Positions 4,582 through 38,450 of a DNA stretch of 38,615 nt are shown here, in pieces. The stretch spans positions 1 to 38,615 of the forward strand of contig JACQEX010000003.1 of assembly GCA_016200345.1 (NCBI GenBank), in the 5' to 3' direction. The position numbers and the translations under genes were made by a program. The stretch is from Nitrospinota bacterium. GTDB taxonomy: Bacteria > Nitrospinota_A > UBA7883 > JACRGQ01. Position 1 is the stretch's first letter; every line of letters starts with the position of its first letter. The notes below the pieces were generated by a model. It was not told the DNA's origin, made no database searches, and saw only the letters and a list, made by a program, of their open reading frames with translations.

Positions 4582-4983
4582 TTAACGTTTGGAGAACTGG
4601 AAGCGTTTGCGCGCGCCCTTTTGTCCGTATTTCTTTCTTTCCTTGACGCGCGAGTCGCGGGTCAAAAGCCCGTTTTTCTTGAGGGATTTCCTCAACTCCG
4701 GGTTCAGGCGGATGAGCGCCCTTGCAATGCCGTGGCGCATCGCGCCGCACTGGCCGGTCTTCCCGCCCCCTTTTACGGTGGCCTTGATGTCCAGCTTTTC
4801 TCCGGTGGCGGTGACTGCCAGCGGCTGTTTTACGATCATCTCGGAGGAGAGCCTCTTAAAATAGTCGGCCAGCGGCAGGCCGTTCACGACAATTTTCCCG
4901 GTGCCCGGGGTGAGCCACACGCGTGCGGAGGAGGTTTTCCTTCGTCCGCTGGCGTAGGTTTTGTTGGAAGTCGCGGTCGCCAT
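4582..4983 (-). CDS. rpsI: 30S ribosomal protein S9
   Basis: [14 protein letters not shown] start and C-terminal [24 protein letters not shown]. Confidence 0.97.
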
Positions 4984-12966: not shown

Positions 12967-14796
12967 ATGGGCAATGAGTCAAGAAAGGACATAAGGTACG
13001 GCCTAAAAAACGTGGCCATCAAGGGGGAGATAATCCTCTATCCCGATCCGTACGCAATCTCCGTCTCGTTCGATGACATCTCCACCAAGGGCGCGGGTCT
13101 GACGCTTGTTTCGGATCTTGACGAAAAGGCGGAGGAGGAGCTCATGCTTTTGGTAAACGCGTGGAAAAAAGGGATGCGCGTTCCAATCCAGTTTTCCCTG
13201 AACAACACAAAAATCCCGGCCCACATAGTGAGCAAAATTGGCCAGAATAAACTCGGCCTTTTAATATCGGACAACCTAAAGCTCGCCTCTCTCGCCGAAA
13301 GGGGAAAGCGGCTGTTCGAGAACATAATCAGCGGGGTGATAACCTCGGCGGTCGGCGGAGCCGGCTCGGCCCAGGCCGGATTTTTTTCCAAGAGTTCCCT
13401 CCCCCCGGAAATTGCGGATTTCATCCAAGCCGGAGTTTCGTCGGGCCTGGTTGAGCGGCTGATATTGGGCGAGCTAAAGGCCCGGCTCCCGGCGTTAAAC
13501 AACAAGGAGCCGGAGGAGGCCAGAAAAATTGATCGGCTGTTCGCTAAATATTTTCAGGACAACGGCGGGGAGGCTTCGGTCCTCGTCGGCCAGATGCTAT
13601 TTTTCATGGCAAAACAAAACCCCACCGTTCCGCTTGAGGAGGTTCTGCCAATCGCCGTGAACAAGCTTTTTTCGGAGGGGGCGGTTTTTGGGGACGTGCT
13701 AAAAAGGTTCGAGACCTTTATGGTGGGAAACTACATAAAAAAACTTTTGCCGCCGCTGTACAGGGATTTGCCGCCACGGCACCCCTTGGCGGAGTTGGTC
13801 AGGGCCAAGTTCGAGGCGTTTAACGGACGGACTTTTTTCCTGACCAAAATCGCGCCGAGCGTTTGCAATTACTACATCAAGGTGTTTTCGCCAAAGGACT
13901 CGGACGCGGCGACGCTAACAGAGACGATGGACGAAAAGCAGATTCGCAGAATTGTGCTCCCCTGGGTTCAAGGCGAGCTGAACGCGCTGGCCTCCAGCAA
14001 GGTGGCGGACGCGGCCAGAAAGATAAACGACGCCTTAAAACAGGCGATGTACGAGTACGCCCAGCGGGCAAAACTCAACAACCTCACGTTCGAGGAGGTG
14101 TCCGACATCTCGGACAACCGTCTGTCGAAGGAGCTTTCGGACATCTCGGACAGGTTCATGGCCGCGGTTTGCAGAAACATAGACCCCGGCATGAGGGTTC
14201 GGTTCGCGCAATACAAGGCTGAGACGGAGGACGAGAGAAGAGAGGCGCAGAACCAGAAGGAAAACGACGCGCGCATACAGGCGATGAGCCCGGCGGATCT
14301 TATGAAAAGGTACTGCTGGAACGTCATCGTCGAGTCCGGCGAGATAAACCAACTGCAACGCGAGGCGGCGAGAAGCTGGGTGCCGAAGGAGAATCTCGTT
14401 GACTACCTGGACCTGGGGGGCATAATCATAATTCCGCGTCCTGCCTACGAGGAGTTTTTGCGGAACAGCGCCGGGGCGGACCTCATCGGCGAGCGGATAG
14501 AGGACTTCTTCAAGGAGGTTGACCTTCTTAGGGAGTATCGAAACACCATCACCATGCCGAACGGAAAAGTGAAGAAGGACGCGCTCGGCGTCCATCTCGA
14601 CACCCTCCAGCCGAAGTGGGTGCGGGACCTTATTCTTGAGAAGGTTATTTTTGCCCCCGAGTGGAACAAGTACTACATTTTGGGGCGGTACAAATCATAT
14701 TTCTTAAAGGTCTTTCGCAAAAACTCGCAACAGATGATAAAAATCATCGAGGAGAACATGCTGTCCGCCGACTACGCAAAATCCGACTACATCTAA
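12967..14796 (+). CDS. N-terminal PilZ-domain protein with large uncharacterised C-terminal region
   Basis: RKDIR (RxxxR) and DISTKG (DxSxxG) motifs; long single ORF. Confidence 0.75.
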   Translation: MGNESRKDIRYGLKNVAIKGEIILYPDPYAISVSFDDISTKGAGLTLVSDLDEKAEEELMLLVNAWKKGMRVPIQFSLNNTKIPAHIVSKIGQNKLGLLISDNLKLASLAERGKRLFENIISGVITSAVGGAGSAQAGFFSKSSLPPEIADFIQAGVSSGLVERLILGELKARLPALNNKEPEEARKIDRLFAKYFQDNGGEASVLVGQMLFFMAKQNPTVPLEEVLPIAVNKLFSEGAVFGDVLKRFETFMVGNYIKKLLPPLYRDLPPRHPLAELVRAKFEAFNGRTFFLTKIAPSVCNYYIKVFSPKDSDAATLTETMDEKQIRRIVLPWVQGELNALASSKVADAARKINDALKQAMYEYAQRAKLNNLTFEEVSDISDNRLSKELSDISDRFMAAVCRNIDPGMRVRFAQYKAETEDERREAQNQKENDARIQAMSPADLMKRYCWNVIVESGEINQLQREAARSWVPKENLVDYLDLGGIIIIPRPAYEEFLRNSAGADLIGERIEDFFKEVDLLREYRNTITMPNGKVKKDALGVHLDTLQPKWVRDLILEKVIFAPEWNKYYILGRYKSYFLKVFRKNSQQMIKIIEENMLSADYAKSDYI

Positions 14797-14808: not shown

Positions 14809-16134
14809 CTACTCCAAAAACCGCCGCACCTTGGGCAGAAAATCCGCCTTGTCGATTTTGTCCTTTGTTATAAAGTCGTTGGCGCCAAGCCTAAAAACCT
14901 CGTTGCGAATCTCGATGTCGTCGGAATTGGTGGAAGCAATCACCGGTATCCCCCTGGTGTCGGCGCCGGATTTGAGCCTTCTTATCAGCTCCAGCCCGTC
15001 CATTATCGGCATTTTCACGTCTGTCACTATCACGTGCGGCCTCGCGGAGGCGACCACTGTAAGCGCATCCTCGCCGTTTTCCGCCTCCATAAAGTCCGCG
15101 TTCAACTCCAGCAATATCTGCTTCAACAAAATTCTCGTGAAGCGGTCGTCGTCCACAAGCAGAATTCTCGGGCGGACAAACGGAAGTTTTAGGCTGAACA
15201 GACAACCCTTGCCCGGCGCCGTCTCAACCGTCAAATCCCCGCCGTGCATCTCCACCATTTCCTTGACGAGCGGAAGGCCGAACCCGGTGCCAATCTCCCC
15301 GGCGGTGCCGACAGTCGAGGTCTTCTTGTCGTAGTCGAAGACGTTCTTTAAAAGGCTCTGCCCAATTTCCCGCTCGTCGTTTTTTCGCTCGGTTATGTCC
15401 TCGGTGACTCCCATGAGCTTGACCACGGTCCCGCCCTCGTTTTTAATGGGAACAAAGCACGATTTGAAGCGACGCGGGTTTTCACCGCCGGAGTCAAACT
15501 CGAAGTTGCTTGCGACGCCATTAAACGCCGCCTCCATCAAGGCGGCTATCCTCGCGTTGTCCCCCTCGGAGACCGCCCCGAAATACGGCACGCCGACCAC
15601 GTCCTTTTCCTCCCTCAAGCAGAGCATGGCCAGCCCGGAATTGTTCATGGATAGCATTCGGCCGTCCATTCCAATTTCATGGATGCAAAAAGGGGACGAC
15701 CCGACAAGAAGCCGGTACCGAGTTTCGCTTTGTTTTAAGGCGTCGTGCGCCTCCTTTAGCTCGGCGGCGCTTGGAAGGGCGAGTAGCGTCGGGATAAGCG
15801 GCCATAGGACAAAGGCGGTGTAAACGGAGACCGAGGCGGTGGCCATCTTTGCCGCGACGTCGAGGTAATACAGCGGTTCCCATAAAATCACCGCGCCCAA
15901 CAGATGCGTCGTTCCGCAGAGCATGATAAACGCCGCAAACAGGGCGGTAAGCCTGCCGTACTCGAAATCCCTGCGCTTTCTTGCAAAATACAGCAAGGCG
16001 AACGGAATTGAAAAATAGGCGAGAAATATAAGGACGTCGGAGACCGCGCTAAACCACAAAAGCCATTTGTCCCAAAGCAGACAGACGCCGTGCGGCATGA
16101 ACGAACTTCCCGGAACAACCCCGCCAGTTTCCAC
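14809..16134 (-). CDS. Ethylene-receptor-like N-terminal TM domain, PAS, truncated histidine kinase ATPase C-terminus, response-regulator receiver
   Basis: SDVLIFLAYFSIPFALLYFARKRRDFEYGRLTALFAAFIMLCGTTHLLG; PAS; GTGFGLPLVKEMVEMHGGDLTVETAPGKGCLFSLKLP; receiver DDD...VTDVKMP...AST...TKDK. Confidence 0.85.
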   Translation of the reverse strand: METGGVVPGSSFMPHGVCLLWDKWLLWFSAVSDVLIFLAYFSIPFALLYFARKRRDFEYGRLTALFAAFIMLCGTTHLLGAVILWEPLYYLDVAAKMATASVSVYTAFVLWPLIPTLLALPSAAELKEAHDALKQSETRYRLLVGSSPFCIHEIGMDGRMLSMNNSGLAMLCLREEKDVVGVPYFGAVSEGDNARIAALMEAAFNGVASNFEFDSGGENPRRFKSCFVPIKNEGGTVVKLMGVTEDITERKNDEREIGQSLLKNVFDYDKKTSTVGTAGEIGTGFGLPLVKEMVEMHGGDLTVETAPGKGCLFSLKLPFVRPRILLVDDDRFTRILLKQILLELNADFMEAENGEDALTVVASARPHVIVTDVKMPIMDGLELIRRLKSGADTRGIPVIASTNSDDIEIRNEVFRLGANDFITKDKIDKADFLPKVRRFLE

Positions 16135-17291: not shown

Positions 17292-18140
17292 TTATTTCAA
17301 CAGTTTGCCTTTTTTACCGTGCAACGCTTTGGCGTTCTTGTCGGTGAGGGCGCTTTTCCCCGTTTTGGCTTCAATGTCCTTTCTGGCGTTGCCAGCCACA
17401 ATTCCGCCTTCCCGCGCCACGTGTTTATTTTCGTCAAGGTTTTTTGGCTCGCGCTTGTCGGAAATTTCGGTGGTGGCGGTCTCGGCGAGCATATTCAAAA
17501 CCAATTCCAGGTTGGTCATGTTGTCCCGGAGGTTTTCCTTTTTTAGACTTTTCATTTTCTTGTATTCGCGCGTGGTCATGCCGGTCCACGCCCTTGTAAT
17601 CTCGTCCGTCAAAATGGCAAATTCCAATCCCTCTTTTACTCCCCGTTTTTCCCACTCGTCCGTCAGGTCTTTTCTCACTTCGATGCTTTTTAGACGTTGG
17701 TTCACCCAATCGGGACTGTAACCTTTTCCCAAATAGGTTTTTAGGGCGCGTCTTATTGCCAATTCGGGGTCGGCGGTTTCTTCCAGCCTTTCATACCCGA
17801 CGCTGGCAAGCCACAGTTTGAACGGTTCGGCGTTTGGCGAGGGGATTGATTGGATTAGGCGAAGCATGGTTTCGGTGTCGGCGGCGTCGGACATGCGCAT
17901 CTTGCCGTCCTGCGCCAACATTTTCAACCCGTGACATTTTGTCACGGTTTCATTTCCGCCTTCTTTCAGAAGCCGTTCTTTGAGCTTTCGCCAATAGGCT
18001 AACGGATCAACGCTATTGGTAAGAACGGCAATTACGTCGGAGACGGAAAAGTACCAAAGCTCCTTCTCTTCGTCCCAATGGCGACGGATATTGTGCCCCT
18101 CAAAAATCGCCACTGTCTTCGGTTTTGATTCCTTTTTCAT
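17292..18140 (-). CDS. BRO-N-domain phage antirepressor-like protein
   Basis: IRRHWDEEKELWYFSVSDVIAVLTNSVDPLAYWRKLKERL...KCHGLKMLAQDGKMRMSDAADTETMLRLIQSIPSPNAEPFKLWLASVGYERLEE. Confidence 0.8.
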   Translation of the reverse strand: MKKESKPKTVAIFEGHNIRRHWDEEKELWYFSVSDVIAVLTNSVDPLAYWRKLKERLLKEGGNETVTKCHGLKMLAQDGKMRMSDAADTETMLRLIQSIPSPNAEPFKLWLASVGYERLEETADPELAIRRALKTYLGKGYSPDWVNQRLKSIEVRKDLTDEWEKRGVKEGLEFAILTDEITRAWTGMTTREYKKMKSLKKENLRDNMTNLELVLNMLAETATTEISDKREPKNLDENKHVAREGGIVAGNARKDIEAKTGKSALTDKNAKALHGKKGKLLK

Positions 18141-24308: not shown

Positions 24309-24352
24309 ATGCAAAAAGCAAATTAAATAATTAATTATTTTTGGAGGAAGTG

Positions 24353-25501
24353 ATGAGAAGGTACATCGAATGGGTCATAAAACACCGGGCGGGAATCATC
24401 GTGTTGACCGCGCTAATAACGCTCGGGCTTGTCTTCCAGCTTAAAAGCCTCTCCATAGTGTTGGATCCGGCAAAGCTTCTTCCGCAGTCGCACGAACTAG
24501 TGGCGGTCGGCAACAGGGTGGAGGAGCTCTTCGGCAACAAATTCACCGTCGTGGTGGGAATCCACGCAAAAAACGGAACCGCGCTAACCCCGCGCGTGCT
24601 CGAAAAGGCGCAGAGAATAACCTCCGCGATTTTAAAATCCAACGGCGCGATTAAGTCAAACGTCGTCAGCGTTTCGTCGCGAAAGGCAAAAAGCATCTCC
24701 ACGAACGACGGCGGGCTGGAGGTGCGGCAGTTGATGGCGTCCGTCCCGACCACGGAGAAGGGGCTGGCCGATTTGAAAAAGGCGCTCGACTCCAACCCCG
24801 TATATTCGAACCTGATAATTTCCAAGGATTACTCGACGCTCGCAATTGTCGCGGAATACAAAAACCTAGGCAGTTTTAGGGCCATAACCGGGCAGGTGGA
24901 GGCCATCATCGCAAAAGAGGCCGACGACGCGGTGGAAATCACGCTGGACGGCCAGCCGGTTTTCACGGCGATGATAGAAAAGTTTTCCGAGCGGATGGGA
25001 TTTTTCTTTCCGCTGGCCCTGTTGGTGATATCCCTGCTCCTTTACTGGGCCTTTAGGAGCGTGCAGGCGCTGTTTCTCCCGCTTGTGACCGCGTTATTGG
25101 CGGTTATTTGGAGCCTCGGGATAATGGGTCTTTTCAAGGTTCCGCTAGACCCGTTCAACGCCACCACGCCCATTCTCATCCTCGCCCTCTCCGCCGGACA
25201 CGCGGTGCAGATAATGAAGCGGTACTACGAGGAGTACCACCGCATCCGAAAAACATTCCCGACCATCGAGCCTCGATCCGCAAACAGACTTGCCGTGGTG
25301 GAATCCGTGACAAGCGTCGCCCCGGTGATGATGTCGGCAGGCCTAATCGCCGCGACCGGATTTTTCTCCCTTTTGGTTTTCGACATCAAGACCATCCAGA
25401 CGTTCGGCGTGTTCACCGGCTCCGGCATTTTAAGCGCGATGTTGCTCGAGATGTCGTTCATCCCCGCCCTTCGCTCCATGCTAAAGGCGCCCGGGAAAAA
25501 A
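24353..25501 (+). CDS. MMPL/RND-family exporter, N-terminal half (frame disrupted at A6, 25496-25501)
   Basis: TM segment, periplasmic domain, MMPL TM cluster ending FIPALRSMLKAPGKK; GGAGGAAG before ATG. Confidence 0.85.
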
Positions 25502-25508
25502 GAGCGTC

Positions 25509-27488
25509 GTGGACTCCGTGGTGTCGGCCTGCGCCAACGCGGTTATCAACAACCGTCCCCGCGTCTTCGCCGTGTCGCTCGTCCTGCTGGCGGTGTTTGC
25601 CGTCGGCGGCGCGCGCGTAAAGGTGGACAACGCGACGAAGGGCGGTTTTTACGGGAACCTCAAGGAGCTGAGGGACGACGACAAATACAACGGCTGGATG
25701 GCCGGCGCCAACCCCATGTACCTTCTCATAGAGGGAAAGGCGGAGGACGCGATGAAGGAGCCGGCGGTTTTAAAGGGGATGGAGTCCATCCAAAGGGAGA
25801 TTGAAAAAGACCCGATGGTCGGAAAAACCGTCTCGCTCGCCGACTACATAAAGCGGATAAACATGGCGATGAACGGCGACTCGAAGGAGTTCGACAAAAT
25901 ACCGGACGACAAAAACTTGATTGCCCAGTACCTTTTTCTGTATTCTACCTCGGGCGAACCGGGGGACTTTGACACGGTGGTGGACAACGGCTACAAAAAC
26001 GCAAGCGTCACGATTTTTTTAAAAACCGACTCCAGCGCGTTCACGGACGCGTTCGTCCAAAAAGTCCGCCGTCTCGGGGCGGACAGGTTAGGCCCGTACG
26101 CCACCATGAGGATCGGCGGCGGGGCCTCGTCCGGAACGGCCTTAAACGAGGTTTTAGTGCATGAAAAAATGTTGAACATCGCCCAAATAATGGCGGTGGT
26201 GTTCATCATCTCCTCCTTGGTGTTTCGCTCGGCGCTGGCCGGGGGGCTGGTGCTTGTTCCGCTGGTGGTCTCGGTCGCGGCGAATTTCGCCGTCATGGGA
26301 TTTTTTGGAATCCCGATGGAAATCGCCACCTCCACCATCTCCGCCATGGCGGTCGGCCTTGGCGCCGACTACGCGATTTATCTGGCGTTTAGAATGCGCG
26401 AGGAGCTAAGAAAAGGCGGGGACGAAAAACTGGCCGTCATGCGGGCGTTCTCCACCGCCGGAAAGGCCGACCTGCTTGTGGCGGCCTCCGTCGGGGCCGG
26501 GTACTTCATCCTGGTCTTTTCCTACGGATTCAACATCCACTTCTGGCTCGGCCTCCTTATAAGCATAGCGATGGTCACCAGCGCGTTCGCCTCCATAACC
26601 ATCTTCCCCGCGCTCATTCTCGCCCTGAGGCCCAAGTTTATTTTTGAGGGGAACGGATCAAAGGAGGACGACGACGCGACGGAGCCATCTGCGGCGGCGG
26701 CAGTTCTTGCGATAATCGCCGGCCTCGCGCTGACAGCTTCTACGGCAGGCGCCCGCGAGCTTTCGGCGGTCGAAATAATGAAGGCCAACTTTTCCGTGCA
26801 AAAGGTGGCGGATTCCGAGTCCGACGCGACCTTTAGGCTAGTGACCCAGACGGGCGAGGAGAGGATAAGAAAAACCCACGGCGTCGCCAAGCTGATAAAG
26901 GGGACCACCGACAACATGCAGTTGGTCCGCTTCGTCGCGCCGCCGGACATCAAGGGAACCACCACGCTCTCCATCGAGCATTCCGACAAGGACGACGACA
27001 TCTGGATTTACCTCCCCGCGCTGAAAAAAACCCGCAGGCTCGTCTCCAGCAACAAAAAGGACAGCTTCGTCGGCACCGATTTTTCCTACGGCGACGTGAT
27101 AGGCCACCGGGTCGAGGATTGGAACCACAAGCTGTTGCGTTCCGAAACTGTGGACGGCGCGGACTGCTACGTGCTGGAATCCACCCCGGCCCGGCCGTCG
27201 GTCGGCGAGGACTCGGGGTATTCAAAACGGGTCGGCTGGATACGAAAGGACGATTTCGTCGCGATTAAGGGGGAGATGTACGGCGAGGACGGAACCCTGC
27301 TAAAGCAGTTTTTCGCCGGCGACATAAAGGAGACCGACGCGGCGAACAAAAAATTCCAGGCGATGCGGATTGAGTCGCGCAACGTCCAGACCGGGCACAA
27401 GACCGTCATCACCTTCGAGAACTTCCGCGCGAAGGTGGGGATAAAGGACGAGATGTTCACCGCAAGATATCTGGAAAAAGATTTTTAA
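25509..27488 (+). CDS. MMPL/RND exporter C-terminal half fused in frame to an outer-membrane lipoprotein-sorting (LolA-like) domain
   Basis: INNRPRVFAVSLVLLAVFAVGGARVKVDN; second MMPL TM cluster; then hydrophobic AAAAVLAIIAGLALTASTAGARELSA and a LolA-like region (DDIWIYLPALKKTRRLVSSNKKDSFVGTDFSYGDV). Confidence 0.82.
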   Translation: MDSVVSACANAVINNRPRVFAVSLVLLAVFAVGGARVKVDNATKGGFYGNLKELRDDDKYNGWMAGANPMYLLIEGKAEDAMKEPAVLKGMESIQREIEKDPMVGKTVSLADYIKRINMAMNGDSKEFDKIPDDKNLIAQYLFLYSTSGEPGDFDTVVDNGYKNASVTIFLKTDSSAFTDAFVQKVRRLGADRLGPYATMRIGGGASSGTALNEVLVHEKMLNIAQIMAVVFIISSLVFRSALAGGLVLVPLVVSVAANFAVMGFFGIPMEIATSTISAMAVGLGADYAIYLAFRMREELRKGGDEKLAVMRAFSTAGKADLLVAASVGAGYFILVFSYGFNIHFWLGLLISIAMVTSAFASITIFPALILALRPKFIFEGNGSKEDDDATEPSAAAAVLAIIAGLALTASTAGARELSAVEIMKANFSVQKVADSESDATFRLVTQTGEERIRKTHGVAKLIKGTTDNMQLVRFVAPPDIKGTTTLSIEHSDKDDDIWIYLPALKKTRRLVSSNKKDSFVGTDFSYGDVIGHRVEDWNHKLLRSETVDGADCYVLESTPARPSVGEDSGYSKRVGWIRKDDFVAIKGEMYGEDGTLLKQFFAGDIKETDAANKKFQAMRIESRNVQTGHKTVITFENFRAKVGIKDEMFTARYLEKDF

Positions 27489-37363: not shown

Positions 37364-38184
37364 TGCGCGGTGCCGTACTGCGGCGAGTAGTCAAACGTCG
37401 CCACCACGTGAATCCGCTCCTTGTTCAAACCTTTGGGGAAACCGGCAAACGGGGCCGATTTCATCACGGCCACCAATGCGGACGAATCCAACGACACGTC
37501 GCCGGCGGAGGTTATGACCTTCGCCTCCAGCAACTCGCCGTTTTTACCGATGGTCATGCGCACAACCGTCCGGCCCCCCAGCCCCTTTTTAATCGCCTCC
37601 TCCGGGTAATTCCACGCTGACGCGACCGCCCCCCGGACGGCGACAAAATACTCCACGTACTCGAACTTTCTGGTGTTGAGTGGGATTATTATCTCGGTTT
37701 CGGTCTCCAACTCCCCGCCGGGGTTCGTTGCGGCAAACTTGTCAATGTCCTCGCCGGACATGGCCGGGGAACGGGCGGCCACGTTGCTCGCCGTCGGAGT
37801 CGGGGATTCCTTGATGAAACTGGGGACGGCCGTTTCCGCCCCTATTATTTGGCTTGATTTGGTCATGCGCCCCGATTTTGAGCGCTCCGTCCCCTTCTTG
37901 GTGAAACTTGCCGATGAAAACGACAGTGCCTCGGCCTTCTCCTTTTCTTTGACCTCCGACCTCGCCTCGGATTTTGGCAAATCTAGCATTTTCCCGTATT
38001 CCAAATCCTTCTCCTCGACGACCGGCTCGGACTTTACGGCGGTCTCGTCCATGAATGTGACCTTTATTATCCCGACGTCCGGCAGTGAGGGGATGGCGGA
38101 GATGTTGAGCGACATGGTCGCGACCACGGCGTGCAGAAGGAGGGAGAACACGATGAAACGCCCGATTTTCCATTGTCCCGCCAT
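37360..38184 (-). CDS. TonB-family energy transducer
   Basis: N-terminal TM anchor, charged linker, TonB C-terminal domain (VASAWNYPEEAIKKGLGGRTVVRMTIGKNGELLEAKVITSAGDVSLDSSALVAVMKSAPFAGFP). Confidence 0.85.
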   Translation of the reverse strand: MAGQWKIGRFIVFSLLLHAVVATMSLNISAIPSLPDVGIIKVTFMDETAVKSEPVVEEKDLEYGKMLDLPKSEARSEVKEKEKAEALSFSSASFTKKGTERSKSGRMTKSSQIIGAETAVPSFIKESPTPTASNVAARSPAMSGEDIDKFAATNPGGELETETEIIIPLNTRKFEYVEYFVAVRGAVASAWNYPEEAIKKGLGGRTVVRMTIGKNGELLEAKVITSAGDVSLDSSALVAVMKSAPFAGFPKGLNKERIHVVATFDYSPQYGTAQ

Positions 38185-38297
38185 CCGCCAAGTCTACCCC
38201 TCTTTAACCACGGAATAAAGCGGCGGATACGCCGGCGTTCGCCCTTGGACTAGTGTGGTGTCCCAGTAAAATAATTACGTTATGGTAGCTTTCGTCA

Positions 38298-38450
38298 ACC
38301 TTTATCAAGTTGCCTGCTTTATCTCTCTGACCTGTAACATACAAGCGTAAAGCGTTTACTGCGGCGGGCTTTTTTCGGCGACCTTTATCAAGTGACATGC
38401 TTTATCTCTCTGACTTGGAGCGCACAAGAAAATAAATGTTTACTGCTCGC
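38298..38450. repeat. Two degenerate tandem repeats, period ~83 nt, plus a partial third
   Basis: acctttatcaag-tg-c-tgctttatctctctgac...tttactgc at 38298 and 38381; tttactgcgggc again at 38479. Confidence 0.75.

Follow-up and report, generated by a model that had tools for sequence, protein, structure and literature searches.

The open reading frame at 14809-16134 encodes an ethylene-receptor-type protein without a kinase core, and probably represents a hybrid kinase gene of the ordinary ETR1 type in which the assembly, or a recent deletion that brought no new function, has left a gap. The gene would be, or very recently have been, a hybrid histidine kinase of the order ETR1_N-PAS-DHp-CA-REC, from which about 519 bp carrying the DHp domain and the first part of the ATP-binding domain would have been lost. 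A wrong assembly join over repeated PAS/kinase sequence may well be the cause, at a little short of an even chance; a recent, real deletion without gain of function has a lower, still appreciable probability. The window, that is the whole stretch of 38,615 nucleotides that was analysed, is an entire contig (C77) of a draft Nitrospinota genome (2.24 Mb, 113 contigs, 93% complete). The features of the gene are as follows.

14809..16134, reverse strand: whole open reading frame, 441 aa, GTG start; ETR1_N, PAS, HATPase stub and receiver
15775..16062, reverse strand: ETR1_N ethylene-binding transmembrane domain, three helices (Pfam, ligand residues, AlphaFold model)
15382..15699, reverse strand: PAS domain, protein 146-251 (Pfam PAS_4)
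about 15364..15370, reverse strand: joint between ERE and IGQ, protein 256-258, at which DHp and the first part of the CA domain have dropped out (comparison with intact hybrid kinases)
15178..15363, reverse strand: orphan C-terminal half of HATPase_c with F- and G2-box (Pfam)
14812..15171, reverse strand: receiver, protein about 322-441, with acceptor D372 and K424 (Pfam, residues)

The Pfam domain matches are far beyond chance. ETR1_N is matched at protein 25-120 (E 1.2e-34, 118.9 bits against a cut-off of 27). All seven residues needed for ethylene binding in ETR1 are matched: D25, Y32, I35, P36, I62, C65 and H69 correspond to D33, Y40, I43, P44, I70, C73 and H77 here, each shifted by +8. 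The copper site of ETR1 consists of Asp25, Cys65 and His69 (PMC12643061). With both a domain above the curated cut-off and the seven ligand and copper residues, the protein joins, by its sequence, the family of bacterial ethylene receptors as a new member from Nitrospinota. Binding of copper and ethylene by the protein as written is plausible through homology with AzoEtr1 and SynEtr1, both of which bind ethylene (PMC11819568). The domain occurs in 3 of 24 Nitrospinota genomes: one copy here, with no second ETR1_N gene found elsewhere in the genome, three in nzgw267, a Nitrospinales MAG of the same family, and one above the cut-off in a third genome.

Known receptors resemble this protein at the front and differ from it behind. 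AzoEtr1 of Azospirillum brasilense, for which saturable ethylene binding has been measured, also has an ethylene-binding domain with the same ligand residues followed by a PAS domain (PMC11819568); it is a protein of 525 aa with a full histidine kinase at its end, whereas the protein here lacks the kinase core and continues into a receiver. SynEtr1 (slr1212) of Synechocystis is likewise an ETR1-type binding domain in a bacterium, but it carries a light-sensing GAF domain and signals by kinase activity to a response regulator (PMC7700396, PMC11819568). Plant ETR1 and its relatives ETR2, EIN4 and ERS2 share both the binding domain and the C-terminal receiver. Kinase activity is degenerate or dispensable in some plant ethylene receptors; the plant proteins have a GAF domain and keep the DHp and CA folds, whereas those folds are missing here.

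What remains of the kinase is a stub. The HATPase_c match (protein 251-319) covers only positions 43-109 of the 111 in the profile, the last 60%, so the CA domain with its N-, G1-, F- and G2-boxes is incomplete. The DHp domain, the N-box and the G1 box (DxGxG) are all absent, and no HisKA or DHp was found in any frame across the whole contig. Autophosphorylation of the protein as written is impossible: the histidine that would accept the phosphate is gone, and so are the N- and G1-boxes that bind ATP. The Response_reg match, by contrast with the truncated kinase domain, is strong (protein 324-425, E 1.1e-22), and the receiver signature of hybrid kinases, an acidic pair, Asp, Thr/Ser and Lys, is complete (D328/D329, D372, T402, K424). 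If the frame exists as written, this receiver would be phosphorylated only by another kinase. A preliminary description had proposed an intact ligand site, a missing DHp with its phospho-accepting His, a missing N-box and an intact receiver; each is borne out, and the G1 box proves to be gone as well. No NCBIfam equivalog reached its cut-off with this protein. The AlphaFold model, which that description had called for, gives the three transmembrane helices, PAS and receiver with good confidence; in the stub, residues 262-280 fall below pLDDT 50 and the remainder is a helix with a hairpin. A sequence search for a solved structure of the ethylene-binding domain gave no match, and the results of a structural fold search with the model were filled by receiver domains.

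The size of the gap is consistent between references. Relative to both intact hybrids of the related MAG, L031:1-2142 and L033:372-3650, the protein lacks 173 codons, or 519 bp; comparison with L003 yields a gap length that is not comparable, as an extra PAS sits between. The loss supposed earlier is thus real in the sequence as written, and the figure of about 450 bases is too small. Stub and receiver belong to the hybrid kinases with the DHp motif LKDKFVSLVSHDLK, several intact copies of which lie in the same genome, and are 54-59% identical to intact kinases of this LKDKF type. The orphan G-box half shows no sign of drift. Its identity to paralogues differs from that of the receiver by +0.07, against 0.00 to +0.12 in intact kinases (few sequences). 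The balance of conservation between stub and receiver is thus that of an intact kinase, and the gap is recent or does not exist in the organism.

An undecayed half-domain with no fold to serve also bears on a second reading, a selected, functional ethylene/copper sensor without a kinase, whose own receiver would be phosphorylated in trans by hybrid kinases or which would pair with a full kinase. Its confidently modelled transmembrane, PAS and receiver domains, its intact ligand and receiver residues, the open frame across the joint and the many intact related kinases that could donate phosphate agree with such a sensor, though beyond the open frame no result positively favours it. It is nevertheless unlikely: besides the idle stub, the same architecture was found in none of 35 ETR1_N loci from genome contigs and none of the 24 Nitrospinota genomes, and several other kinases of the assembly carry similar gaps, most of which break the frame. 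A specific form of it, in which a paralogous hybrid kinase would phosphorylate the receiver of a maintained sensor and the ligand would control a mixed dimer or a sink for phosphate instead of autophosphorylation, is more doubtful still. The kinase-dead sensor signalling through its receiver that had been proposed earlier is accordingly disfavoured, and its stated alternative, a recent in-frame deletion near 15350-15375 or an assembly collapse, fares better.

The relatives themselves carry kinases. Among the 35 loci, all ETR1_N proteins whose C-terminus is within reach possess a kinase core, either HisKA or one that reads as HWE-like. The exceptions to a complete kinase are L031, L065, L051 and L032, which are cut or frame-broken, and L043. 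The closest sequences are L031, L032 and L033 of nzgw267. L031 is the best orthologue (67% identity over transmembrane domain and PAS); it ends at a contig end inside a second PAS-like stretch, short of the position of the gap. L032 and L033 (46-47% identity over the same region) differ from the protein studied here in having a full HisKA-HATPase, although the L032 receptor gene is interrupted by an in-frame stop. At L032:3683-7484 and L033:3749-7140 the ETR1_N kinase gene precedes those of a response regulator of 149 aa and a receiver-kinase, possibly a conserved cassette. L043:3908-5278, from a Methylovulum MAG, encodes ETR1_N, two PAS domains and then an apparent GGDEF start at the contig end, for which Pfam makes no call; it is possibly an ethylene-receptor-type diguanylate cyclase.

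The gap is not isolated. A kinase survey of the same assembly, by family searches and in sequence stretches of the genome, found 63 HATPase places and 43 HisKA places. At least six further kinase genes away from contig ends lack internal or 5' pieces, mostly around DHp.

C41:3322-3770 (L016): H-box to N-box missing, frame lost
C59:70715-71302 (L095, locus 70358-71300): transmembrane region to DHp helix 2 missing, frame lost
C86:1120-2200 (L017): one gap within a PAS and one at the H-box, both breaking the frame
C92:7486-8349 (L018): all sequence before DHp helix 2 missing
C100:38175 (L097, locus 38100-38372): start of a response regulator joined to a kinase G-box
C112:16962-17474 (L098): in-frame joint of PAS to DHp helix 2

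Kinase genes with frameshifts lie at C87:18851-19530 and C112:4635-5619 (at 4972). Partial HisKA domains number 4 of 43 here and none in four relatives, among the best 150 of 168 matches (p 0.002). In an ABC ATPase control from the same genome, 0 of 27 domains were broken away from a contig end and one was broken at a contig end, a borderline difference when eight kinase genes are counted as broken (p 0.05). A word of 15-19 bp in the PAS end beside the joint recurs at six further positions of the genome, of which three are kinase loci. Draft assemblies would be expected to break down in repeated PAS/kinase modules. Against the main reading, the joint keeps the reading frame, and both the receiver and the ligand site are whole, as they would have to be in a working protein; the frame is kept at 2 of the 7 kinase joints, which is what chance predicts. 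The gap would then be one among several in the kinase genes of this assembly, due to misjoins over repeated PAS/kinase sequence or to very recent decay. In a kinase family as large as this one (62 HATPase places, where a genome of the same genus has 27), new deletions form a tentative alternative to misjoining, and a true deletion allele would be without function or, at most, give a protein that other kinases phosphorylate passively. Orphan kinase fragments at the ends of contigs C40 and C70 were considered as the lost piece and showed no tie to this locus. Elsewhere in the window an MMPL/RND exporter (24341-27488, forward strand) falls into two frames, with the break at six consecutive A near 25490, the second frame running on into a LolA-like outer-membrane lipoprotein-sorting domain; this poly-A frameshift hints at sequence faults.

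The fusion at C100, from response-regulator start to kinase end, is also a precedent for a chimera of two genes, in which the transmembrane and PAS part of a receptor would have acquired the tail of another hybrid kinase, whether in the genome itself or during assembly. Hybrid kinases with tails like this one adjoin ETR1_N genes in the related MAG, where the complete ETR1_N protein, L033, has no receiver and terminates in a different type of kinase. The hybrid there sits upstream of the receptor gene, however, the wrong order for a simple fusion, and base composition is even across the joint, which makes a chimera improbable.

Within the 12 kb examined in the same-genus genome (G001), ilvE is present (80% identity) and no other gene of the window. 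A 609-aa protein (12967-14796, forward strand) has no Pfam match above threshold; several diverged copies occur in this genome and a single or few in some family relatives, with none in the same-genus genome. A protein with a BRO family N-terminal domain (17292-18140, reverse strand) adjoins ilvE.

The presence of ETR1_N in 3 of the 24 Nitrospinota genomes extends the set of bacteria that are candidates for ethylene sensing. A real excision would bear on the question whether receptors of this type depend on a kinase. A fault of the assembly or a recent deletion that damaged the gene is the most likely origin of the gap, rather than a novel type of receptor, and the evidence serves mainly as a warning against trusting the kinase genes of this draft genome near repeated PAS/DHp sequence.
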